Positions 12,575 through 43,476 of a stretch of DNA of 64,000 nucleotides are shown here, piece by piece. Below the pieces are notes generated by a model. That model was not told the DNA's origin, ran no database searches, and saw only the letters and a list, made by a program, of their open reading frames with translations. Positions within the stretch are counted from its first letter, which is position 1. The number at the start of each line of letters is the position of its first letter. Both the position numbers and the translations under genes were made by a program. Origin of the DNA: Thermococcus sp. AM4 (GTDB lineage: Archaea; Methanobacteriota_B; Thermococci; Thermococcales; Thermococcaceae); NCBI RefSeq assembly GCF_000151205.2, contig NC_016051.1, positions 1,736,001 through 1,800,000 of the forward strand, given 5' to 3'.

Positions 12575-13288
12575 TTGGAGTCATGTTTGGTTTTGAAGGA
12601 TCTCAAACTCATTGAAGCAACTGAAGAGGGCTGGAAATCAATCGAGGGGTTCAAATCCATAATTGATGACGTTATTAAACACGGCGATGACGCCGCAAAG
12701 GCCCTCAACGACCTCGTTAAGGCAGGAGTTTCAAAGGAGGCGATTGAGGAGGCCGTCAAGCACGGGGCAACGGTAAAAGCCGTGAAAGAAGGAATTGAGA
12801 GGTTTGCAAAATCAACATCGCCCATAAAGAACTCTCATGGATACACTATCATCATAGAGAGAGGCAACGAGGGATATGGCCTGATCCACGGCTGGTTAAG
12901 GCACGTGCATGGCTACGAGATGGACTATAAAAGAGAGACATCATTTTTCCCAATGGGACAGGAGATAGTGTACTATGTGAATGGTCAGAGGAAAGTCATG
13001 AAACTTCCCAAGACAATCCAGTCTCCGGAGGAACTGTACAACGAGATTGCAAGGTTGGTAGAACAGCACAAAGATAAATTAGCCGGTGATGATACTGTGG
13101 TTCTGCATGTGCAGAGCTCTCTTCCGGGCATAGACAAGATAACTTTGGTGTTTAAGAAAACCGGGTCTAGGCAGTATAAGTTAATAACATTCTGGCCTGA
13201 AAGTGGCAGTGCAGTGCTCAAGTTTGAGAAAGGCGGAACATGGTACAGGTATGACCCACTAACGGGGAATATAAAACTATGGAGGTGA
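12575..13288 (+). CDS. Toxin-like C-terminal module (possible EndoU/BECR-type nuclease)
   Basis: About 237 residues from TTG 12575; the true start is uncertain, because no ATG or good RBS is visible and the frame stays open upstream. The N-terminal 80 residues are helical (HGDDAAKALNDLVKAG...), like the pre-toxin stalk of polymorphic toxins. The C-terminal 150 residues hold a His-rich LIHGWLRHVHG (about residues 103-113), then TSFFPMGQ, LPK, and LITFWPESGSAV near the end. This order (His motif, T-x-F-P, late T-x-x-P) resembles EndoU-like toxin RNases; that assignment is tentative. No signal peptide or trafficking domain is present. It lies directly before an immunity-like gene and has fragmentary relatives downstream. 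Confidence 0.55.
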   Translation: MESCLVLKDLKLIEATEEGWKSIEGFKSIIDDVIKHGDDAAKALNDLVKAGVSKEAIEEAVKHGATVKAVKEGIERFAKSTSPIKNSHGYTIIIERGNEGYGLIHGWLRHVHGYEMDYKRETSFFPMGQEIVYYVNGQRKVMKLPKTIQSPEELYNEIARLVEQHKDKLAGDDTVVLHVQSSLPGIDKITLVFKKTGSRQYKLITFWPESGSAVLKFEKGGTWYRYDPLTGNIKLWR

Positions 13289-13294
13289 TGCTTC

Positions 13295-13939
13295 ATGACT
13301 TTGAATATTTTTCCACTTCACCTTTCAGGAAAGATAATCCGAGTAACAATAGAAGCTCCGGTTCTTGACGAATGGGGGAGGTTGGTTGACTGTATATTCC
13401 CTACTCCAATTTTATTTTTCGTCCAAGATACTCCCTTGAGTTGGGCCGAGATAAATGGAGAGCTTCATGGAATGGACGCCAATCCAGTTGATTTTTTCGA
13501 GGGATTGCTTTCTGCTATAATCTGCTTGACAAATGCGGAGCAGTGCTCTCTAGAAGAACTCAGAAAGCTGTGGCTGGAGAATGCCCTATCGTTGGGGTTT
13601 GAGGTTGAAAATGAGTCCTGTTTCTATCTCACCAACTTAGGCATTCAGTATAACTGGTATCTCTTTGAGCGTCTGGGGTACAAGCTCAGAATACATTACC
13701 ATAATGATTGGGGAAGTGGCACTAAGGGTGTTGTTGAGGTGCCTTTCGTGGAGTTTGCAAGGGATTCAATAACCATGGCCGAGACATTCGCAATGGTTTT
13801 GATGAAGAACCTTAATGCAATCAAAAGTTATCTATTAAAAAATGGATGTGATCCAAGCATATTTGGTTTTGATGAATCAACTATTGAGAGGCTTTTTAAG
13901 TATATAAAAACATTGAAAGAGACAATTTTCAGGGGATAG
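13295..13939 (+). CDS. Immunity-like protein, copy 1
   Basis: A 214-residue acidic cytoplasmic protein, the first of four paralogues within 3.2 kb. Shared features are an N-terminal strand with ILFFV-type hydrophobics and then W(A/E)xxNGELHG. A middle region (LFERLGYKLRIHYHND) and a conserved KGVVEVPFVEFARDS element precede a helical C-terminus. GGAGGTGATGCTTC before ATG 13295, only 6 bases after the toxin-like stop, is the classic toxin-then-immunity spacing. It has the weakest similarity to the other copies, lacking their DCPEYKGKHKG motif. Function as an inhibitor is inferred from context. A+T-richer than flanking housekeeping genes. Confidence 0.6.
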   Translation: MTLNIFPLHLSGKIIRVTIEAPVLDEWGRLVDCIFPTPILFFVQDTPLSWAEINGELHGMDANPVDFFEGLLSAIICLTNAEQCSLEELRKLWLENALSLGFEVENESCFYLTNLGIQYNWYLFERLGYKLRIHYHNDWGSGTKGVVEVPFVEFARDSITMAETFAMVLMKNLNAIKSYLLKNGCDPSIFGFDESTIERLFKYIKTLKETIFRG

Positions 13940-14315
13940 TGAATTAGAAATAACGACCTTCTGGCCGATGGGTCAGAGGATTGTCGTGAACGGTCAGGCA
14001 AAGCAGTTGCCTAAGGTGTTCCGGGACGAGCGTGAGCTCAGAGAGTTCCTTGATGACATAGTGAAGAAGACGCTTGAAAATTCAGATTACAAGAAACAAT
14101 TCTTTAAGAATGGAGCACCTAATAAGAACTTTGGAATTTCGGTAGATCTTAAGAAGCGTGGAATCAATGTTGACGGCATTGACGTGGTTAGGCTGGAGTT
14201 CAAGTTCGAGAAGGGGAAGTTCGTGCTTAAGACTGCTTATCCAAAGAAGGGTAGTGCTGTGTGGGAGTACAGGTATGTTAACAGGTATGAACGTGGATGG
14301 ATCAGGGAGGGTTAA
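13940..14315 (+). pseudogene. Orphan toxin C-terminal fragment 2
   Basis: The frame can be read from ATG 13968 (115 residues), but its similarity to the first toxin module continues upstream of that ATG. The upstream codons give SELEITTFWPMGQ, matching the ETSFFPMGQ of copy 1, and begin right after the immunity stop at 13939. The rest aligns over VNG-x-LPK and ends with KTAYPKKGSAVWEYR, against TFWPESGSAVLKFE in copy 1. The His-rich LIHGWLRHVHG half is absent, so this is probably an inactive displaced toxin tip rather than a gene with its own start. Confidence 0.6.
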
Positions 14316-14318
14316 ACA

Positions 14319-14945
14319 GTGTGGGTTACACTGAAGGGGAAGCGCTTAACCGTAAAAATAGACCTTGAGAGATATATCAACACTCCCTATCCTTTCTTTT
14401 TGATTTTTATGATAGATGAGTACTTACTCTTGGGAGCCTGCTGGGAAGGAGAATTCGAAGGAGCCAACGCGGACGTTTACGGGTTTTTTGAGAGTTTGTT
14501 AACTGCCTGTTATTACTTTTTACAGCCAGAACATCCACACGTTCAAAAAATAACTAAATTCGACAGAGAGAATGCGGAGAGAGATGGGTTTGAATTGAGA
14601 GATGAAGTTGTTGTGTACCAAACTACTCTAGTTGCAGAGGCAGCTGGAACGTATTACTTTTGCTCTACAAGAAACCTTACAAGGATTTACTATGAGAATG
14701 ATTTTCTCAAATTCACGGACTGTCCTGAATACAAGGGCAAGCACAAGGGTGTTGTCGAGCTTTCTCTCAAAGAGTTCATTGAGGACGTTTTGAAAATCAG
14801 CAGGGAGTACTTGGAGAAGTATGCTCCAGTCATCGAGAAAATCAGGCTTGAGCACGGGGAAGAGTCTGATGACTACGATTTCCTCCAAAAGTTCTATCGC
14901 GAAGTGGAGGAGCTGTACAAGAAGAGGTTTGGATCAGAGTCTTGA
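14319..14945 (+). CDS. Immunity-like protein, copy 2
   Basis: A 208-residue paralogue starting at GTG 14319 with GGGAGGG about 10 bases upstream, 3 bases after the toxin fragment. It opens with VTLKGKRLTVKIDLERY, has the central GACWEGEFEGANAD element and the hallmark TDCPEYKGKHKGVVEL followed by a helix (EFIEDVLKISREYLEKYAPVIEKIR). The same hallmark recurs in copy 3 and in modified form in copy 4. Predicted cytoplasmic and acidic. It probably neutralises a toxin variant; no known immunity family could be named with confidence. Confidence 0.6.
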   Translation: MWVTLKGKRLTVKIDLERYINTPYPFFLIFMIDEYLLLGACWEGEFEGANADVYGFFESLLTACYYFLQPEHPHVQKITKFDRENAERDGFELRDEVVVYQTTLVAEAAGTYYFCSTRNLTRIYYENDFLKFTDCPEYKGKHKGVVELSLKEFIEDVLKISREYLEKYAPVIEKIRLEHGEESDDYDFLQKFYREVEELYKKRFGSES

Positions 14946-14986
14946 GCTTTGAGGATGGGGTGTTTGTCTTGAGTGGAGACGGGTGA
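14942..14986 (+). pseudogene. Short toxin remnant between immunity genes
   Basis: Read from 14942 the codons give LSFEDGVFVLSGDG and then a stop at 14984-14986. The FE-DG-xFVL text parallels FKFEKGKFVLKTAYP near the end of toxin fragment 2. The GGTGATGCTT that follows (14982-14991) is the same junction found between toxin 1 and immunity 1 (13284-13293). Only 14 codons are involved, so chance cannot be excluded, but position and junction sequence support a relic of a deleted toxin tip. Confidence 0.35.
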
Positions 14987-14991
14987 TGCTT

Positions 14992-15651
14992 GTGGAGAGG
15001 ATCACAGTTAAGGGTAAGCATATTTACTTTGAGGTTGGTTTGGGCTGGTTTGAGGGGGCTGAAGTTTACTGGCCCTTCCCCGTTATTTTACTCTTTGACA
15101 ATCACGTCCTAGTTGGGGAATGCTGGACTCCAACGGGCGGAAAACTCCAAGGAACATACACAGACCCGCTAATTGCCCTTGATGGTTTGGTTCGAGGACT
15201 TGACGAGATGCTGTTAACTAAACCAGACGAGCGAGGAGATTGTAGCAGTCCTCGAGAAATGGCAAGAAAGAGAGGTTTCAACGTTGCCGATGACAGCCCA
15301 TTATACTGTGCTTCTTTAGCTATACAATCGGAAGTTTTCTTTGAGAGGATTGGGGATACTGTGAAAATCCATTATTATAATGGTCTTCTTGAGGGGACTG
15401 ATTGTCCGGAGTATAAGGGTAAGCATAAGGGTACTATTGAGGTTCCATTAATCGAGTTTGGGGAGGATGTTTTGAGGGTTTTTGGCGAGTACCTAGAGAA
15501 GCATTACAAGCACGTTGAAGAAGTCAGACAAGAAGCCTACGGATACAACAGAATGGACGATTACGAGGATTATAAGAGGTGGCATCAGCAGTATTTGAAA
15601 GAACTGAGGGCACTGAGGGAGAAGTCTGGAAAAAATCATGGTGAACGGTGA
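14992..15651 (+). CDS. Immunity-like protein, copy 3
   Basis: A paralogue of about 219 residues, with ERITVKGKHIYFE at the start and GECWTPTGGKLQGTYTD after it. Later come SPREMARKRGFNVADDSPLY and the hallmark TDCPEYKGKHKGTIEVPLIEF, then a helical charged C-terminus. GTG 14992 is chosen by analogy with copy 1 (GGTGATGCTT then the start). ATG 14986 and GTG 14983 are also in frame and would add two or three residues. It is closest to copy 2 in the hallmark region. Its last codons overlap the third toxin remnant in another frame, showing a recombination seam. Confidence 0.6.
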   Translation: MERITVKGKHIYFEVGLGWFEGAEVYWPFPVILLFDNHVLVGECWTPTGGKLQGTYTDPLIALDGLVRGLDEMLLTKPDERGDCSSPREMARKRGFNVADDSPLYCASLAIQSEVFFERIGDTVKIHYYNGLLEGTDCPEYKGKHKGTIEVPLIEFGEDVLRVFGEYLEKHYKHVEEVRQEAYGYNRMDDYEDYKRWHQQYLKELRALREKSGKNHGER

Positions 15652-15742
15652 GGTTAAGCGGTTGCCCAAGGTCTTTAACAGTGAGGAGGAGCTGATGGCT
15701 TTGGAGTGGGTGAAATTTACAAAAAAAGCTTACAATGACTAA
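15626..15742 (+). pseudogene. Orphan toxin fragment 3
   Basis: In a frame different from the overlapping immunity gene, codons from 15632 give KIMVNGEVKRLPKVFNSEEEL, written here as KIMVNGEVKRLPK followed by VFNSEEEL. This parallels RIVVNGQAKQLPK followed by VFRDEREL in fragment 2. After about 15 more residues the frame stops at 15740-15742; the C-terminal GSAV half is missing. The following bases TAAAACAGTGTG match TAAACAGTGTG after fragment 2, so the toxin/immunity junction is preserved. Clearly a decayed toxin tip. Confidence 0.6.
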
Positions 15743-15752
15743 AACAGTGTGA

Positions 15753-16409
15753 ATGGGGGTGCGTTCCTTGTCAAAGTACAGGGAACGTTTAAGGACTCTG
15801 AGCTTTCGAGGAAGGCACATCTTTCTTATTGTGGATCCAAATGTTGAGAACTGCTTTCCTGATCCGTTTCCAACTCTCATGACAATCGATGGAAGGCTCA
15901 TCATCGGGGCAGTGTGGAAATCAACTGGCTGTTATCCGACGATGCTGCCTGCGAATCTTCACGGGACTTTTCAGGACCTCCTGGATCTCTGCATATCTTT
16001 CCTCGATCCGGACTTCGATGAAAGGGGTGAAATGCTGTATCCCCGCAGGGAAGCCCGAGAACTCGGCTTCAATGTCGGTGATGACACTAAACTCTATGAA
16101 ACTGGGCTTTTTGTTGACCAAGGTGTTGTGTCTGTCTTTTTTGAACTCGAAGGGGAGACGTTGAAAGTCCACTACTTTAACGAACTCATGCAATGGACTG
16201 ATTGCCCCGGGGCCTCTGGGATGCATAAGGGAACTATCGAGATGCCGTTCAGGGAGTTTGCGAGAGAAGTACTGAGGCTCTCTGAATGGTTTTTAAGAGA
16301 GGTTGCTCCGATTTTGGAGGAGGTTTGCCTTGAATATGAGGATCCCGACTACCTGTGGGAGATGTACGTAGCTTTGAGGGCTCGGCTCGGAGGTGATCGG
16401 GACGATTAG
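15753..16409 (+). CDS. Immunity-like protein, copy 4
   Basis: A 218-residue member of the same family, with LSFRGRHIFLIVDPN, GAVWKSTGCYPTMLPANLHGT, YPRREARELGFNVGDD and TDCPGASGMHKGTIEMPFREFAREVL. The motif order is the same as in copies 2 and 3, with the CPEYKGK part altered to CPGASGM. The start is uncertain (ATG 15753, GTG 15759 or TTG 15768). The 3' end overlaps the next gene by 17 bases, an unusually intimate join with an unrelated beta-propeller gene. Confidence 0.58.
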   Translation: MGVRSLSKYRERLRTLSFRGRHIFLIVDPNVENCFPDPFPTLMTIDGRLIIGAVWKSTGCYPTMLPANLHGTFQDLLDLCISFLDPDFDERGEMLYPRREARELGFNVGDDTKLYETGLFVDQGVVSVFFELEGETLKVHYFNELMQWTDCPGASGMHKGTIEMPFREFAREVLRLSEWFLREVAPILEEVCLEYEDPDYLWEMYVALRARLGGDRDD

Positions 16410-35715: not shown

Positions 35716-37155
35716 ATGCGCCTCAATGAACATCCTGTTCTCAGGTTTGAACGTGGTAGGGAGGTTACAATATACTTCGAAGGAAAACCAATCAAAGCCT
35801 ACGAGGGCGAGACGATAGCGACAGCTTTGCACGCCGCGGGAATCAGGGTCCTCAACTACTCACCGAACGAAAAGCGCCCGAGGGGCCTCTTCTGCGCCAT
35901 CGGCAAGTGTTCCTCCTGTCTGATGGTCGTCAACGGGATTCCAAACGTCAGGACGTGCATAACCCTCGTCGAGGACGGCATGAGGATAGAGCGCCAGCAC
36001 GGAAGGTCCAAGCTCCCCACGAAGGCCAAGCCACCGGAATTCAAAGATGCGAAGGTCGTTAGGGCGGACATCATAGTAATAGGCGGCGGCCCCGCTGGGC
36101 TGATGGCGGCAATCCACGCATCGAGAGCCGGGGCCAAGGTCGTTCTCATAGACGAGAACCACATGCTCGGCGGCCAGCTCGTCAAGCAGACACACAAGTT
36201 CTTCGGAAAGCGCGAGCAGTTCGCGGGAGTCAGGGGAGTGGAAATCGCGAGAATCCTCGAGGAGGAGCTGAGGAAGAGCGAGAACGTCGAAGTCTTCATC
36301 GAAACCTCTGCCGTCGGCATCTTCCAGGAGGGCGAAGAGAAGCTCGTCCTGGCGGTCAGAAAGGAGCGCGAGCTGATAGAGTTCAGGGGAAGGGCAGTTA
36401 TCGTCGCCACCGGCGCGATGGAGAGGATGATTCCCTTCGAGAACAACGACTTGCCCGGGGTTTACGGCGCTGGTGCAATCCAGACGCTCATGAACACCTA
36501 CGGCGTCAAGCCCGGAGACAGGGTTCTCATCGTTGGGGCCGGAAACGTGGGGCTTATCCTCGCCTACCAGCTCATCCAGGCCGGCGTCGAGGTGAAGGCG
36601 ATAGTAGAGGCCATGCCCAAAGTCGGCGGCTACTTTGTCCACGCGGCGAAGGTCAGAAGGCTTGGAGTTCCGATACTCACGAGGCACACAATCCTCCGCG
36701 CCGAAGGAAGGGAAAAGGTCGAAAGAGCCGTTGTGGCCCAGCTCGACGAGAACTGGAGGCCGATTCCGGGAACCGAGAAGACCTTCGAGGTCGACGTCAT
36801 AGCGCTCTCAGTTGGTCTGAGGCCCAGCATTGAACTGCTCCACCAGGCCGGCTGTCAGATAAAGTACGTCCGCGAGCTGGGAGGCCACGTGGCGGTTCGC
36901 GACGAATGGATGGAAACGACCGTTCGGGGAATCTTCGTTGCGGGAGATTCGGCCGGGATTGAGGAGGCAACCACCGCGATGCTCGAGGGCAAGATAGCGG
37001 GAATAGGGGCAGCGCTGAGGCTCGGAATAGCGGACGAGAGCTGGATTGGGGAGATAGAGAAGGCCCAGCGCGACCTCGACGAGTTCCGCTCCGGGCCCTT
37101 CGGCAGGCACGTGGTGGAGGGAATTAGGAAAATACTCGCGGAGGCGAGAGCATGA
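35716..37155 (+). CDS. pdhA: L-proline dehydrogenase complex, alpha subunit (NAD(P)/FAD oxidoreductase)
   Basis: A 479-residue protein. The N-terminal 100 residues form a [2Fe-2S] domain with CAIGKCSSC and a further Cys in VRTC. Next is a FAD-binding GGGPAGLMAAIHA, and a second dinucleotide fold GAGNVGLILAY for NAD(P). The closing FVAGDSAGIEEATTAMLEG is typical of the pyridine-nucleotide disulfide oxidoreductase fold. The gene order with a ferredoxin-like, a BFD-like and an FAD oxidase-like subunit matches the four-subunit PDH1 complex of Thermococcus. There the alpha subunit acts as an NADH dehydrogenase. Confidence 0.88.
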   Translation: MRLNEHPVLRFERGREVTIYFEGKPIKAYEGETIATALHAAGIRVLNYSPNEKRPRGLFCAIGKCSSCLMVVNGIPNVRTCITLVEDGMRIERQHGRSKLPTKAKPPEFKDAKVVRADIIVIGGGPAGLMAAIHASRAGAKVVLIDENHMLGGQLVKQTHKFFGKREQFAGVRGVEIARILEEELRKSENVEVFIETSAVGIFQEGEEKLVLAVRKERELIEFRGRAVIVATGAMERMIPFENNDLPGVYGAGAIQTLMNTYGVKPGDRVLIVGAGNVGLILAYQLIQAGVEVKAIVEAMPKVGGYFVHAAKVRRLGVPILTRHTILRAEGREKVERAVVAQLDENWRPIPGTEKTFEVDVIALSVGLRPSIELLHQAGCQIKYVRELGGHVAVRDEWMETTVRGIFVAGDSAGIEEATTAMLEGKIAGIGAALRLGIADESWIGEIEKAQRDLDEFRSGPFGRHVVEGIRKILAEARA

Positions 37156-37661
37156 ACGAGATTCCCGCTTACCTTCAGAGGGGATACATAACCCCCGAGG
37201 AGCTGTTCTCGATAATCCCGAAGCCGAGCGAGGATAGGCTCAGGAAGAGGCCTGTCGCAGTTCCCGAGTGCCCGCAGGAGATACCCTGCGCCCCGTGCAG
37301 GGAGATATGCCCGACGGGCGCGATAAACATGCCCACCCCGAACGACCTGCCGATTGTCGACTACGACAAGTGCATCGGTTGCTCCCTCTGCGTCCAAATC
37401 TGTCCAGGTCTGGCGTTCTTCATGGTGCACTACGTCGGCGACAAAGCGCGCATAACGATGCCCCACGAGCTTCTTCCGGTTCCCGAGAAGGGAGAGGAGG
37501 TCGTTCTTCTCAACAGGGTCGGCGAGCCGGTCGGTAAGGGGAAGGTAATCACCGTCGTCCCGAGGGAGAAGAGCAAAGGAGACACGCCGATAATCGTCGT
37601 CGAGGTGCCGATTGAGCTGGCATGGGATGTTCGGGCGGTTAGGGTTGAACGGAGGGGATGA
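37152..37661 (+). CDS. pdhF: Proline dehydrogenase complex ferredoxin-like subunit
   Basis: A 169-residue iron-sulfur protein starting by ATGA overlap with pdhA. Two Cys clusters are visible: CPQEIPCAPCREICP and CIGCSLCVQICPG. Each is consistent with [4Fe-4S] binding, the first with an irregular spacing. The C-terminal 80 residues are Cys-free beta text. It should carry electrons between the flavin subunits. Assignment rests on gene order as well as motifs. Confidence 0.85.
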   Translation: MNEIPAYLQRGYITPEELFSIIPKPSEDRLRKRPVAVPECPQEIPCAPCREICPTGAINMPTPNDLPIVDYDKCIGCSLCVQICPGLAFFMVHYVGDKARITMPHELLPVPEKGEEVVLLNRVGEPVGKGKVITVVPREKSKGDTPIIVVEVPIELAWDVRAVRVERRG

Positions 37662-37662
37662 C

Positions 37663-37935
37663 ATGACCGGAAAGAAAATCGTCTGCCGCTGTAACGACAT
37701 AACGGTTGAAGACGTCGAGAGACTCATAGATTCAGGCGTCACGGACATCGAGGAGATTAAGAGGCTCCTCCGCGTCGGCATGGGGCCGTGCCAGGGGAGG
37801 ACGTGCATTCCAATCGTAATCTCAATCCTCGCGAGGAAGACCGGGAAGAGGCCCGAGGAGATACCGCTTCCGAAGGCGAGGGTCCCGATTCGGCCGGTCC
37901 GCGTAGAGGTCATCGTGGGTGGTGCCGATGAGTAG
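37663..37935 (+). CDS. pdhX: Proline dehydrogenase complex small [2Fe-2S] (BFD-like) subunit
   Basis: A 90-residue protein whose KIVCRCNDITVEDVERLI and GPCQGRTC motifs provide four Cys in the pattern of BFD-like [2Fe-2S] domains, with the usual length. ATG 37663 follows GGAGGGGATG and starts one base after the pdhF stop. An in-frame GTG-type extension inside pdhF is not favoured. It is the smallest subunit of the complex. Confidence 0.85.
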   Translation: MTGKKIVCRCNDITVEDVERLIDSGVTDIEEIKRLLRVGMGPCQGRTCIPIVISILARKTGKRPEEIPLPKARVPIRPVRVEVIVGGADE

Positions 37936-39094
37936 AATCGCGGTAATCGGAGGCGGAATAATCGGGGTCGCCACGGCCTACGAGCTGGCCAGGCTCGGTG
38001 AGGAGGTTATTCTCTTTGAGAAGAACTACTTCGGCTCAGGCTCCACCTTCCGCTGTGCCACTGGAATACGCGCCCAGTTCACGGATGAAGCCAATATCAA
38101 GCTCATGAAGCACTCGGTCGAGCGCTGGGAGAAACTTGAGGAGGAGCTTGGGGCGGATATAGGCTTCAACCAGACCGGCTACCTGTTCTTAGCGACGAGC
38201 GAAGAAGAAGTTGAGGCGTTCAAGGCCAACATAAAATTGCAAAACCGCTTCGGCGTCCCGACGAGGCTCATCGACATGGATGAGGCGAAGGAGGTAGTGC
38301 CCATCCTCAACACCGAGCCGTTTTTGGCGGGAGCGTGGAACCCGAAGGACGCCAAGGCGAACCCCTTCAAGACGCTCTTCGCCTATCTGCAGAAAGCGAG
38401 GGAGCTTGGCGTTGACGCGCGCGAGCACACTGAAGTAGTTGGACTTGAGCGCGAGGGAGACACTATAACCGCTGTAAAGTTCAGGAGCAACGGGAAAGTT
38501 AAGAGCGTTAAGGTTGACGCTGTTCTAAATGCCTCCAACGCCTGGGCGCCCCTAATCAACGAAATGGCCGGCTTAAAGCGCGACCTCGTCCCGATTAAGG
38601 CCTACAAGCACCAGCTCGTCAAAACGGAACCGCTTGAGAGGGGACAGGCCGAGCCTTTGGTGTGCCCGCCAGCTTGGGAAGACGCCTACATAATCCAGGA
38701 CGGCGAGGACGGCGGAATCATCTGCGGTGCGGGGATAGAGCACGAGGCAAAGAGCTTGGAAGACGTTGAGCCGACCTACGACTTCCTGCGCGGGGTCCTC
38801 CGCTACGCCGTGAGAATCGCCCCTCCGCTCCGCTACGCCCACGTTGTGAGGCAGTGGGCCGGCTTCTACGCCAAAACTCCCGACAGCAACCCTGCAATCG
38901 GGAAGCTTTTGGACAACTTCTACATTGCGGCGGGCTTCTCTGGACACGGCTTCATGATGGCGCCGGCCGTTGCCCAGGCCATGGCCGAGCTAATCTCGAA
39001 GGGCCGTTCTAAGGTTCCCTTGGACTGGGAGTGGTACGACCCGTATCGCTTCGAGCGCGGTGAGCTGAGAAGCTCGGCGTTCCAGATTGGGTGA
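37928..39094 (+). CDS. pdhB: L-proline dehydrogenase, beta (catalytic FAD) subunit
   Basis: A 388-residue DAO-type FAD oxidoreductase. The Rossmann start is IAVIGGGIIGVATAYELA, the FAD loop is SGSTFRCATGIRAQF, and the C-terminal RQWAGFYAKTPDSNPAIG and AAGFSGHGFMMAPA are characteristic of sarcosine/proline-oxidising enzymes. It overlaps pdhX by 8 bases. In the known complex this subunit oxidises L-proline to pyrroline-5-carboxylate. A hydroxyproline or sarcosine substrate cannot be excluded on sequence. Confidence 0.9.
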   Translation: MSRIAVIGGGIIGVATAYELARLGEEVILFEKNYFGSGSTFRCATGIRAQFTDEANIKLMKHSVERWEKLEEELGADIGFNQTGYLFLATSEEEVEAFKANIKLQNRFGVPTRLIDMDEAKEVVPILNTEPFLAGAWNPKDAKANPFKTLFAYLQKARELGVDAREHTEVVGLEREGDTITAVKFRSNGKVKSVKVDAVLNASNAWAPLINEMAGLKRDLVPIKAYKHQLVKTEPLERGQAEPLVCPPAWEDAYIIQDGEDGGIICGAGIEHEAKSLEDVEPTYDFLRGVLRYAVRIAPPLRYAHVVRQWAGFYAKTPDSNPAIGKLLDNFYIAAGFSGHGFMMAPAVAQAMAELISKGRSKVPLDWEWYDPYRFERGELRSSAFQIG

Positions 39095-39148
39095 GCCTTT
39101 CTCCCGGCTTTCCCTTTTAACATCCCTCCGTCAAGAAAAAGGTTATAA

Positions 39149-39856
<708 letters not shown>

Positions 39857-39936
39857 AGTCTTTCTTTTGATTTTGGTTGTTGACTAATTTCATCGAACCA
39901 AAAAGCTTTTATTGTTAAGTCGAGTAACATGCAATC

Positions 39937-42045
39937 ATGTGCAAGATGGCGCACTTTGGGAACTGCGACCCTGAAACTGCCGACCAAGAGTACTGCATTT
40001 TTCACAAGCCGAACAAGAGTGAGGAGGAAGCAGTTGAGTTCTACCGGAAGTTTTTGGAGAGGTTTAAACCAAGAGTTGAGGAGATTGAGGTTAATGGGAA
40101 GAAAGTGAAAAGGCTGGTTTTTGAAAAGTCAATAGATGCGAGGGGGTTTGTATTTCCAAAAACTACTGAAGTTGAATATAAAGATCCCAAAGGGAACGTC
40201 ACATGGAAAGGTGAGTTCCCCTTTAGATATGCACTTTTTAAAGAAAATGTCAGTTTTGAAGAAGCTGTCTTTGAGGGAGATGCTGTATTTTACGAAACTG
40301 TTTTCGACAAGAATTTAACATTTGATAGAGCACAATTCAATGGAAAAGATGGGACATTCATTTCGGACTTTCTTCTTAAGGATCCAGGTGATCCATTAGG
40401 AAATTTAATGTTAGCTCTGTATTTTGAAAGAATCGATGAGATAGCATATGGTGCAAACTTCAATGGTGCAAAGTTTAATGGGCACGTATTATTTAAGAAA
40501 ACAGTATTCAATACTTCTGCTCTTTTTGATTTTGCTGAGTTTAAAGAGAAAGTATTGTTTGAAGATGTTTTGTTTAATAGAATCACTTCGTTTAATGGAG
40601 TGAAGTTTAGTGGAAACTATTCTTTAGCAATTCCAGTTGGTACTGATGGAACACCTTATGAAATGATTTGGAAGATAAGTCCAGTTGTATTTAAGAATGT
40701 GATATTTAAAAGAAAGGTATATTTTGGAGAGACTCAGTTTAAGGGTGTAGTGTTTCAGAATACGCAATTCAAAGGAAAAACAGTGTTTATTGGCGCTAAC
40801 TTTGTAGGCAAATATGCATTATTCTTAAAGACAGAATTTTCAAAGCCTGTTTGGTTTAAAAATGCTATATTTAAAATCCAGATAGGAACCTCTGAACTTT
40901 CTAAAGTAGGATTTGAGCTTGTTCATGGACGAGTCATATTCCGAGAAGCTATTTTTAGGGGGGGTGCCCTGTTTAATGGGGTTACATTTACTGCTGAGTC
41001 TGAATTTATAGAAACAGAATTTAGAGGGGACACTAATTTCATGCATTGTACTTTTGAACGCTCTATTAATGTGTTAAAATCTAAATTTCTAGGAAAAGAA
41101 ACTAGCTTTGTAAAATCAATATTTCGAGATAATGCATCCTTTGACTTTTCGAAGTTTAGAGAGGTTTTCTTCAACTTTGCTGTGTTTGAGAAGGAAGCGA
41201 GTTTCAAAAACGTAAAGTTCTATAATGAAACTCAATTTAAAGAAGTTGAGTTCAAAAAAGCAGTCGAATTTCAAGGGGCAGAATTTAAAAGCAAAACTAC
41301 GTTTGAAGGTTCTGTCTTTGAGAGATTATCTGTTTTTGTTGATGAAAACTTAACTTTAGAGGAGCCGGCACCTAAGTTTCACGATGAGCTAAGCTTTGCT
41401 AACTGCGACTTCAGACAGGGAGCGGATTTTTTAGGAAACCTAAAAAACGAAACAAATCTCTCCAAACTCTGGGAGTTCTTCAGTTCACGTTTCTCAAATC
41501 TCCAATCAATTATAGAAGCCCTTCGTGTTCAGCGTCTAAGTTTTGAAAAAGAAGGCAAACGCGACGAAGCCGATAGAATGTTCGTCCTTGAAATGCGCGC
41601 TAAGAGAAAACTTAGAATGACACAAGCAAAAGAAAATTTTGCTAATGCTAAGGGCCTTAAGAATAAGACAAAAGCTATTCTAAACTATCTTGGGACCTGG
41701 ATTAATGTACAAGTGGAAAAGATACTTGCGGATGGCGTTAGTGAATATGGCACAAACTGGAAGAAGACTCTACTAGCAAGTGCTAACGTTATTATATGGT
41801 CTGCGATTCTGTATAACATTCTAACAAATTGGCTTTCTCTGGGCAAAATATTGGAAAGTACAGGTAAACCCGTAACAGATATCCTAAATCAACTTTACTA
41901 CTCCCTCGTGACCTTCACGACCCTCGGATACGGGGACATGCACCCGACGGGCTGGCTCAAGGCTTTGAGCGCCCTTGAAGCCCTGACCGGCGCCGTCTTC
42001 ATGGCCCTCATCGTCGCGGTGATAGCGAGAAAGTGGATGCGCTGA
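39937..42045 (+). CDS. Pentapeptide-repeat protein fused to a two-helix K+ channel
   Basis: A 702-residue fusion. The N-terminus has a CxxxxxxxC...YCIFH arrangement (residues 2-23) that may bind metal. Residues about 80-500 are a long series of F-x-x-(A/T/V)-x-F pentapeptide-type repeats (e.g. FKKTVFNTSALFDFAEF) predicting a right-handed beta helix. A helical linker of about 100 residues follows, then a membrane helix (ANVIIWSAILYNILTNWL), the pore LVTFTTLGYGDMHPTG (canonical T-x-GYGD filter) and a last helix. Base use is A+T-rich to about 41895, then abruptly G+C-rich through the pore (see findings). Likely a gated K+ channel with a repeat sensor; gating ligand unknown. Confidence 0.82.
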   Translation: MCKMAHFGNCDPETADQEYCIFHKPNKSEEEAVEFYRKFLERFKPRVEEIEVNGKKVKRLVFEKSIDARGFVFPKTTEVEYKDPKGNVTWKGEFPFRYALFKENVSFEEAVFEGDAVFYETVFDKNLTFDRAQFNGKDGTFISDFLLKDPGDPLGNLMLALYFERIDEIAYGANFNGAKFNGHVLFKKTVFNTSALFDFAEFKEKVLFEDVLFNRITSFNGVKFSGNYSLAIPVGTDGTPYEMIWKISPVVFKNVIFKRKVYFGETQFKGVVFQNTQFKGKTVFIGANFVGKYALFLKTEFSKPVWFKNAIFKIQIGTSELSKVGFELVHGRVIFREAIFRGGALFNGVTFTAESEFIETEFRGDTNFMHCTFERSINVLKSKFLGKETSFVKSIFRDNASFDFSKFREVFFNFAVFEKEASFKNVKFYNETQFKEVEFKKAVEFQGAEFKSKTTFEGSVFERLSVFVDENLTLEEPAPKFHDELSFANCDFRQGADFLGNLKNETNLSKLWEFFSSRFSNLQSIIEALRVQRLSFEKEGKRDEADRMFVLEMRAKRKLRMTQAKENFANAKGLKNKTKAILNYLGTWINVQVEKILADGVSEYGTNWKKTLLASANVIIWSAILYNILTNWLSLGKILESTGKPVTDILNQLYYSLVTFTTLGYGDMHPTGWLKALSALEALTGAVFMALIVAVIARKWMR

Positions 42046-42156
42046 CGGGAAACCTTGACGTTTGTCTCCTCCCCAGCGCATTCTTTTTGAAAAGGCAACG
42101 CCATTTCCAAAGCCAACTTTTTATACCTCCGCGCCCTTCTCAAGCTGGTGGTGCTC

Positions 42157-43476
42157 ATGAAAATCGTCGTTATCGGTTCTGGAACAGCTGGAAGCAACTT
42201 CGCCCTCTTCATGAGGAAGCTCGACAGGAAGGCGGAGATAGTTGTCATCGGGAAGGAAGGCACGATGCAGTACTCGCCATGCGCTCTACCCCACGTCATC
42301 AGCGGGACGATAGAGAAGCCCGAAGACGTCATCGTCTTCCCGAACGAGTTCTACGAAAAGCAGAAGATAAAGCTCATGCTCAACACCGAGGCGAAGGCGA
42401 TAGACCGCGAGAGGAAGGTCGTAATCACCGACAAGGGCGAGGTCCCCTACGACAAGCTCGTTCTGGCAGTTGGTTCCAAAGCTTTCGTCCCGCCGATTAA
42501 AGGCGTCGGGAACGAGGGCGTCTTCACCCTCAAGAGCCTCGACGACGTGAGGAGGATTAAAGCCTACATCGCCGAGAGGAAGCCGAAGAAAGCGGTAGTC
42601 ATCGGCGCGGGTCTAATTGGCCTTGAGGGAGCTGAAGCTTTTGCGAAGCTCGGAATGGAGGTTCTCGTCGTTGAGCTAATGGACCGGCTAATGCCGACGA
42701 TGCTCGACAAAGACACCGCGAAGCTCGTTCAGAAGGAGATGGAAGCGAACGGCGTCTCCTTCCGCTTCGGCGTTGGGGTTAGCGAGATAATCGGCAGTCC
42801 CGTTGAGGCGGTTAGGATAGGCGACGAGAAGGTTCCGGCCAAGCTGGTTCTCGTCGCGACCGGCGTCAGGGCCAACACAGACCTCGCAAAGGAGGCGGGG
42901 CTTGAGGTTAACAGGGGAATAGTGGTCAACGAGCACCTCCAGACAAGCGACCCGGACATCTACGCGATAGGCGACTGCGCCGAGGTGATAGATGCGGTAA
43001 CCGGCGAGAGAACGCTCAGCCAGCTCGGAACTTCAGCGGTCAGGATGGCAAAAGTGGCGGCGGAGCACATAGCGGGAAAGGACGTCTCTTTCAGGCCTGT
43101 CTTCAACACGGCCATAACCGAGCTCTTCGGCCTCGAGATAGGCACCTTTGGAATAACGGAGGAGAGGGCAAAGAAAGAAGGGATTGAAGTTGCCGTCGGC
43201 AAGTTCAAGGGCTCCACGAGGCCCGAGTACTACCCCGGCGGAAAGCCGATAACGGTCAAGGTTCTCTTCCGGAAGTCCGACAGAAAGCTCATAGGGGCAC
43301 AGATAGTCGGCGGCGAGCGCGTCTGGGGCAGAATAATGACGCTCTCGGCCTTGGCTCAGAAGGGAGCGGCGGTAGAAGATATCGTTTACCTTGAGACCGC
43401 CTACGCCCCGCCGATAAGCCCGACGATAGACCCGATAAGCGTCGCGGCGGAGATGGCGCTGAGGAAGCTCAGGTGA
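42157..43476 (+). CDS. FAD/NAD disulfide oxidoreductase of the CoA-disulfide reductase / NAD(P)H sulfur reductase group
   Basis: A 439-residue flavoprotein. KIVVIGSGTAGSNFA binds FAD. The single redox Cys is in MQYSPCALPHVI (about residue 45), the feature of CoADR/Nox enzymes that use one Cys with CoA. KAVVIGAGLIGLEGAE binds NAD(P)H, and IYAIGDCAEVIDAV is the second FAD motif. Relatives in Pyrococcus act as NADH oxidase, CoA-disulfide reductase or CoA-dependent sulfur reductase; which applies is not readable here. ATG 42157 follows GGTGGTGC, with a TTTTTATACC TATA-like box upstream. Confidence 0.92.
   Translation: MKIVVIGSGTAGSNFALFMRKLDRKAEIVVIGKEGTMQYSPCALPHVISGTIEKPEDVIVFPNEFYEKQKIKLMLNTEAKAIDRERKVVITDKGEVPYDKLVLAVGSKAFVPPIKGVGNEGVFTLKSLDDVRRIKAYIAERKPKKAVVIGAGLIGLEGAEAFAKLGMEVLVVELMDRLMPTMLDKDTAKLVQKEMEANGVSFRFGVGVSEIIGSPVEAVRIGDEKVPAKLVLVATGVRANTDLAKEAGLEVNRGIVVNEHLQTSDPDIYAIGDCAEVIDAVTGERTLSQLGTSAVRMAKVAAEHIAGKDVSFRPVFNTAITELFGLEIGTFGITEERAKKEGIEVAVGKFKGSTRPEYYPGGKPITVKVLFRKSDRKLIGAQIVGGERVWGRIMTLSALAQKGAAVEDIVYLETAYAPPISPTIDPISVAAEMALRKLR

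Follow-up and report, generated by a model that had tools for sequence, protein, structure and literature searches.

The presumed sensor part of a potassium-channel gene of Thermococcus sp. AM4 has very probably been exchanged between species, and close relatives carry, between conserved ends, middles that are unrelated to each other. The gene, referred to as the B gene, lies in the window, i.e. the whole 64,000-nucleotide stretch that was analysed, and it encodes a long repeat rod fused to a two-helix pore (Table 1). The exchange is well supported, whereas we infer gating and a role in defence; our leading but tentative reading is that of a ligand-gated K+ channel whose sensor moves between species through homologous recombination, with conflict against viruses or other cells as its most likely use. 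Even if it is read plainly, this is a channel with a near-constant pore end at its locus and with a sensor that is wholly different between close species. In the open-licence literature, we recognised neither an ion channel with a constant pore end and an exchanged sensor nor work on this channel family.

Table 1. Parts of the channel gene and borders of its spot, in window positions
Feature	Position	Strand	Remarks
Pentapeptide-repeat/two-helix K+ channel gene (B gene)	39937..42045	+	ATG start, open reading frame, 702 aa
Cys/His start (C2, C10, C20, H23)	39937..40008	+	probable zinc knuckle, metal binding putative
Phe-centred repeat region, residues 93-500	40213..41436	+	period 11 (5+6), AT-rich, differs between species
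Helical linker, residues 501-610	41437..41766	+	consensus motif EARRVQRLSYEKEGKRDEADRMFVLEMRAKR; proposed coupling element
First membrane helix, residues about 611-630	41767..41826	+	hydropathy and alignment
Turret, residues 631-652	41827..41892	+	first membrane helix to pore helix; several types in relatives
Conserved 3' end, last 50 codons and stop	41893..42045	+	pore helix, filter, second membrane helix; host-like GC3
TLGYGD selectivity filter, residues 662-667	41920..41937	+	
Amino-acid-kinase family gene	39167..39856	+	left border of accessory spot
Pyridine-nucleotide disulphide oxidoreductase gene, which we take to be CoADR-like	42148..43476	+	right border of accessory spot

Anatomy of the channel protein

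The initial annotation had described the open reading frame as F-centred pentapeptide repeats joined to a two-helix channel with a TLGYGD filter and a Cys/His start, and Pfam, the periodicity of phenylalanine, a structural model and alignments all bear this out. Pentapeptide_3 matches in 11 stretches (E 6.6e-37, 125.9 bits against a cut-off of 27). Phenylalanine makes up 67 of the 408 residues from 93 to 500, and 29 pairs are found at lag 5, compared with a mean of 10.7 and a maximum of 19 in 2000 shuffles. The strongest period is 11 (41 pairs), and with 22 pairs at lag 6 the repeats proceed in alternating steps of five and six residues, not in strict fives. This combination of a pentapeptide-type beta-helix with a channel is far beyond chance. 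An AF2 monomer model built on an alignment of two sequences (mean pLDDT 68.8, pTM 0.64) has mostly confident beta-strands from about 173 to 498, with gaps, helices from 500 to 602 and a membrane part of low confidence. Its structure alignment retrieved HetL (Z 18.5, 223 residues, 3.0 A), QnrB1 (Z 16.8) and also MfpA, and as other right-handed beta-helices such as tailspikes align to it as well (Z up to 17.1), the match is one of fold class. A scan of the DNA for repeats found copies inside the repeat region only, apart from one probable chance pair.

The pore is recognised by Pfam as Ion_trans_2 at residues 618-699 (E 2.1e-13, 50.4 bits against a cut-off of 22.5), and hydropathy gives two membrane stretches, at about 611-630 and 674-701, with none before residue 611. 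The TLGYGD filter is invariant in 19 aligned sequences (15 of the window type, the window's own included, and four paralogues), and a profile of this alignment matches Shaker (E 1.9e-10) and KirBac3.1 (E 2.3e-9). By its filter, its helices and these profile matches the protein is a two-helix K+ channel, for which K+ conduction is predicted, and it is probably a tetramer of two-helix subunits. By analogy with Shaker and KirBac3.1, and with no hydrophobic stretch preceding the first membrane helix, the rod should be cytoplasmic. Two relatives, G090 and G002, have a pore end that is different from that of the others. Ligand-gated prokaryotic K+ channels such as MthK and the Ktr/Trk group likewise combine a conserved pore with a cytoplasmic sensor, there an RCK domain that comes after the pore. 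In the window protein, by contrast, the presumed sensor precedes the pore, and the second membrane helix is followed by a few residues only and by no C-terminal gating domain.

Among 19 intact B genes, the protein varies in length from 360 to 889 aa, with a conserved start and end and a variable middle. All four residues of the Cys/His start are present in 22 of the 23 starts that begin with MC (the window's included), and G087 has R for H. The linker motif, which ends in EMRAKR, is kept in most of the 17 linkers that were aligned out of 24 stretches; the linkers of L039, L049, L050, L051, L066, L068 and L069 are longer or hard to align and were left out. Since the 19 intact genes retain the start and the filter, and most of the aligned linkers the motif, the function of the B gene seems to be kept.

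Probable exchange of the middle part between species

The base composition breaks within the gene. GC3 is 0.64 in codons 1-50, falls to 0.16-0.40 in codons 51-650 and reaches 0.82 in codons 651-700, compared with 0.70-0.79 in the flanking genes, i.e. the middle of the gene is AT-rich and its host GC-rich. Broadly the same profile is found in B genes of other GC-rich hosts, and the right-hand step lies at codons -53 to -50 in the mean of 20 ends, which were taken from GC-rich hosts whose protein ends in ARKWMR (G090 and G002 end differently).

Nucleotide comparison of the window with the genome G022 gives 93.5% identity from 36001 to 40157 and 94.2% from 41893 to 43476, whereas the middle cannot be aligned as DNA except for 102 nt of the linker (74.5%). 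In seven of eight picked pairs, identity jumps to 90-100% at codon -50, and in the eighth, G025/G043, it is already high before. Ten pairs have a CoADR identity above 0.88, and in these the repeats are 21-37% identical, compared with 69-98% for the middle of a paralogue (at least 84% in six of the ten). In the main genus (13 genomes), repeat identity shows no relation to flank identity (rho -0.14, reached by 1663 of 2000 permutations), whereas the identity of the upstream kinase gene (rho 0.64, 0 of 2000) and that of the paralogue's middle (rho 0.40, 15 of 2000) rise with it. For the turret with the first membrane helix, rho is -0.05. The first 48 codons ignore flank identity as well (rho 0.06), so that the left limit of the exchanged part apparently lies close to the start codon.

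A rotated control was used to check the alignment of the repeats. True and rotated pairs could not be told apart by identity alone, which in 68 of 136 pairs was at or below the rotated identity plus 0.03, but they could by alignment score, 126 of the 136 pairs exceeding 1.5 times the rotated score. This argues that the middles are not random but either distantly homologous or made of repeats aligned in register. Nineteen segments of at least 100 nt surpass the CoADR identity of their pair, most of them short linker matches that conservation could explain. Six of the segments exceed 400 nt, and these extend from the linker as far as the conserved 3' end or its vicinity; those of G047/G057 (414 nt at 91.8%, CoADR 82.7%) and G038/G071 (541 nt at 88.0%, CoADR 82.5%) both run into that end.

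The identity of the last 50 codons follows that of the flanks with a rho of 0.64, dropping to 0.28 without two genomes of another genus, and the signal inside the main genus that these codons were inherited with the locus is weak. Within them, the phylogenetic signal fades leftwards among the 13 main-genus genomes (rho 0.36 for codons -25 to -1, 0.03 for -40 to -26 and 0.18 for -50 to -41), a pattern that ordinary crossovers scattered in the conserved end would produce. The edge falls at window position 41893 in seven of 11 comparisons. A fixed site-specific right border at codon -50 was also considered and is unsupported, the edge being the start of conservation.

The route of exchange would be homologous recombination, in which the conserved first codons and the last 50 codons supply the homology; the sensor part would thereby be repeatedly replaced with versions from other Thermococcales while the gene keeps its chromosomal place. 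The comparison set holds one genome per species, so exchange within species is invisible in it. Searches for silent cassettes in the same genome gave the B gene and its paralogue only, viruses and phages gave no match to six peptide patterns or by tblastn at 1e-5, and plasmids gave remote pentapeptide or channel matches only. Promoter and terminator scans yielded no more than shuffles, archaeal promoters lying outside the scan models. In G014, G013, G041 and G052, several broken copies lose their reading frame inside the first 150 codons, close to where the exchanged part starts on the left, as though some exchanges had produced out-of-frame joins.

The paralogue (A gene) occurs in the same genomes and is a ready control. 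A search of 94 Thermococcaceae genomes gave matches in 88 for the A and B families together. The A gene, of about 480-510 aa, is present in most relatives' genomes, with the copy of this genome at G000:C1:606141 and upstream; all 25 stretches that were read give an open reading frame, 23 of them with an MCEY start (in two, G000 and G033, simple calling of the frame misplaced the start), and in four of four stretches read by eye it adjoins the same 375-378-aa gene. It shares with the B gene the Cys-Cys-Cys-His start, a long cytoplasmic part, a similar linker and the TLGYGD pore, but Pfam gives only Ion_trans_2 (one member scanned), its GC3 is host-like throughout and its identity tracks the flanks. 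The control is not perfectly stable, given a modest rho and middles of 69-70% identity in the three closest pairs. These pairs join this genome's paralogue (L040) to three relatives with a CoADR identity of 92-94%, and it may too have been replaced once.

Hypervariability in Thermococcales has also been described for the VARTIG modules, which centre on a predicted secreted Ig-domain protein with a variable C-terminus, and which, like the B gene, vary apparently via recombination between loci of different Thermococcales and lie in accessory islands (main text of PMC8416519). In the B gene, however, it is the ends that are conserved and the middle that varies, and the protein is a channel; the main text on VARTIG mentions neither pentapeptide nor channel (PMC8416519), and Pfam gives no Ig domain in the window protein, which on this evidence is no VARTIG member. 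As stated there, close enough genomes were wanting, so that the recombination sites were not precisely mapped (PMC8416519). The B gene would be a second hypervariable system of Thermococcales, and one whose variable part has edges that can be located in the nucleotide sequence.

An accessory spot and its occupants

In most carriers the B gene lies between the amino-acid-kinase and the CoADR-like gene, and in the window it stands alone between them; four intact copies are located elsewhere (G002, G074, G076 and G077). The search for homologues and their neighbourhoods, as proposed in the initial annotation, brought out an accessory spot, and in the relatives' loci no gene is constantly beside the B gene except the two flanking genes. 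In a survey of the spot, 71 stretches were scored (the carriers and 40 further stretches), and both flanks lie in one stretch in 59; the remaining 12 are cut by contig ends, or the kinase gene is not beside the CoADR gene. The spot is empty in 21 of the 59, with 40-150 nt between the flanks and nothing found in them, whereas both ends of the B gene are present in another 21, in 15 of these as one intact open reading frame. Ten spots hold 3' codons without a recognisable start (G016, G021, G028, G029, G044, G055, G059, G060, G066 and G089), so that pieces of the conserved 3' end persist as remnants in several relatives; much of the gene is left in G059, G060 and G066, and just 14 codons in G021. 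Seven spots exceed 200 nt without a B gene. Judging from these counts of empty spots, start-less remnants and other cargo, the B gene belongs to the accessory genes and is frequently lost, with 3' codons staying behind. An intact B gene is missing at 17 of 36 examined loci, at some only through contig ends, and decay may therefore be common. With 28 of the 59 readable spots holding no piece of it, the B gene is not the widespread housekeeping channel with a known ligand that, according to the initial annotation, would have refuted its reading; for the paralogue that description holds in part, most relatives carrying it, and no ligand for it is described in the open-licence literature surveyed.

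Other cargo of the spot comprises toxin-antitoxin genes, a HEPN protein and a radical-SAM and MFS pair. An RHH and PIN pair of the VapBC type (e.g. L056:5330-6057) is a frequent occupant with or without the channel, and PIN is found in 20 of the 71 stretches. In two genomes, the HEPN-domain protein, of 343 aa, is separated by about 80-100 nt from the remnant 3' codons of the channel (L034:8343-9374 in G016, with a Pfam E of 6e-5, and L036:6474-7505 in G044). A radical-SAM/SPASM protein and an MFS transporter fill the spot in L098:6434-8856 (G028) and L035 (G029), the MFS part is found in L110 (G058), and the pair is broken in some genomes. The radical-SAM protein matches prokaryotic viperin profiles in PADLOC (E 1.8e-19), but its SPASM domain suggests a peptide-modifying enzyme. 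In L112 (G067) the spot contains nine open reading frames, of which the larger ones look secreted and by eye partly Ig-like and are followed by several small membrane proteins; these occupants resemble a VARTIG island, yet Pfam gave nothing above the cut-off in the three that were scanned.

Proposed function and its alternatives

In the reading that we favour, the N-terminal cytoplasmic part, consisting of the Cys/His knuckle, the beta-helical rod and the helical linker, would be a ligand sensor that gates the pore via the first membrane helix. Given an almost invariant pore end, and a motif ending in EMRAKR that is retained in most linkers, it is likely that the rod acts on the pore through the linker and the first helix. 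The diversified rods would recognise different intracellular triggers, such as viral proteins or nucleic acids or incoming effectors, and the trigger would open the pore, which would dissipate the K+ gradient and arrest the cell. The unusual gating or sensing device of the initial annotation agrees with this anatomy, and with repeats that differ between species while the pore end, the Cys/His start and mostly the linker motif are conserved, although gating itself is our conjecture. A defence-like effector, also suggested there, was conceivable from the outset and has become likelier through the hypervariability and the accessory spot, even though the PADLOC-DB 2.0.0 (2023) profiles matched the window protein in 0 families at E up to 10 and nothing besides the flanks is a constant neighbour. 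We think that a diversified sensor in an accessory gene fits conflict better than housekeeping, which is an argument from pattern. A further step, which we regard as rather unlikely, is that Thermococcales draw on a common stock of sensor rods that can stand in for one another on a single K+ channel. The rod, the first membrane helix and the turret would be replaced via the conserved ends, and the system would be the archaeal equivalent of polymorphic immune receptors, connected directly to an executioner pore. Should the rods serve for recognition, archaea would possess a receptor of the immune type that is hypervariable and wired to the membrane.

A possible alternative is an ordinary physiological K+ channel for osmotic, pH or membrane-potential control, with the rod as a weakly constrained spacer or anchor and a variability that reflects horizontal transfer and drift and no arms race. 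The pentapeptide-channel fusion itself is indeed not new or unique according to database matches, as it is found in unrelated archaea and in Aeromonas: Pfam gives pentapeptide repeats and Ion_trans_2 in three of three haloarchaeal plasmid proteins scanned, and an Aeromonas open reading frame has by eye a Cys/His start and TLGYGD, although these channels are remote from the window gene (in the better matches, 31-36% identity across some 50-60% of the linker-pore query). The same alternative is also favoured by the paralogue of the same plan with its recurrent neighbour, by a Phe pattern that is kept in the repeats through all other changes and by the many broken B copies. Drift, however, would track flank divergence and host base composition, and the repeats do neither; moreover, close species carry unrelated versions in place of one another, and the paralogue retains a host-like composition. 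Among seven annotated plasmid contexts of the haloarchaeal relatives, restriction-type methylase genes lie near two, one of them also with a ThsB-like TIR gene, which is too few for evidence (one of the two was scanned with PADLOC). On a plasmid of Haladaptatus salinisoli (L166:1-6366), a PDC-M50A candidate gene, a ThsB-like TIR gene and a restriction-type methyltransferase gene are found at distances of about 1.3 to 3.1 kb from the pentapeptide-channel gene.

The diversification could also be driven from outside, by viruses or peptide toxins that bind the extracellular turret, so that the turret and the first helix are swapped and the rod is carried along. Both elements do come in several types whose identity does not follow that of the flanks, but the cytoplasmic repeats vary no less and are far longer, and one type of turret can be met again with another rod (G025/G042, turret 84% and middle 48% identical), which makes this explanation improbable.

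Still less probable is a HalA-like channel that is gated by an oligonucleotide from a partner nucleotidyltransferase, as in a defence of the Hailong type, where HalB is the nucleotidyltransferase. HalA, as described in papers that cite the Hailong work, is the ion channel of this anti-phage system and is shut by DNA oligomers. The structure of HalA with oligodeoxyadenylate (9nyi) came first among solved structures in a Foldseek search with the window model (E 9.6e-3, prob 0.94), a weak match with TM-scores of 0.13-0.30 and an rmsd of 16.9-20.0 A, and it returned at rank 7 (E 0.92) for a separate model of the linker and pore part, whose mean pLDDT of 55 means that its Foldseek matches mean little. 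HalA is, however, absent from the best 50 rows of a second structure alignment, and there is no sequence match to 9nyi among the matches listed (in one case the best 60 of 171). In Hailong the HalB gene adjoins its partner, whereas here neither the spot nor the flanking genes contain a nucleotidyltransferase and a search for the NTP_transf_2 family found its nearest match about 78 kb away.

Some pentapeptide helices (Qnr, MfpA) mimic DNA, and the initial annotation had brought up such mimicry, but a membrane-tethered DNA mimic is scarcely credible in spite of the structural match to QnrB1 and MfpA, because the repeats of the window protein are near neutral where those of a mimic would be strongly negative on their surface, with a net charge of -4 over 408 aa (-1.0 per 100 aa). 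Across 20 proteins, the charge of the repeats ranges from -7.3 to +3.2 per 100 aa. Elsewhere in the window, positions 13001-16000 form a 3-kb stretch of low GC content (0.42-0.45, with a window mean of 0.53) and strong GC skew.
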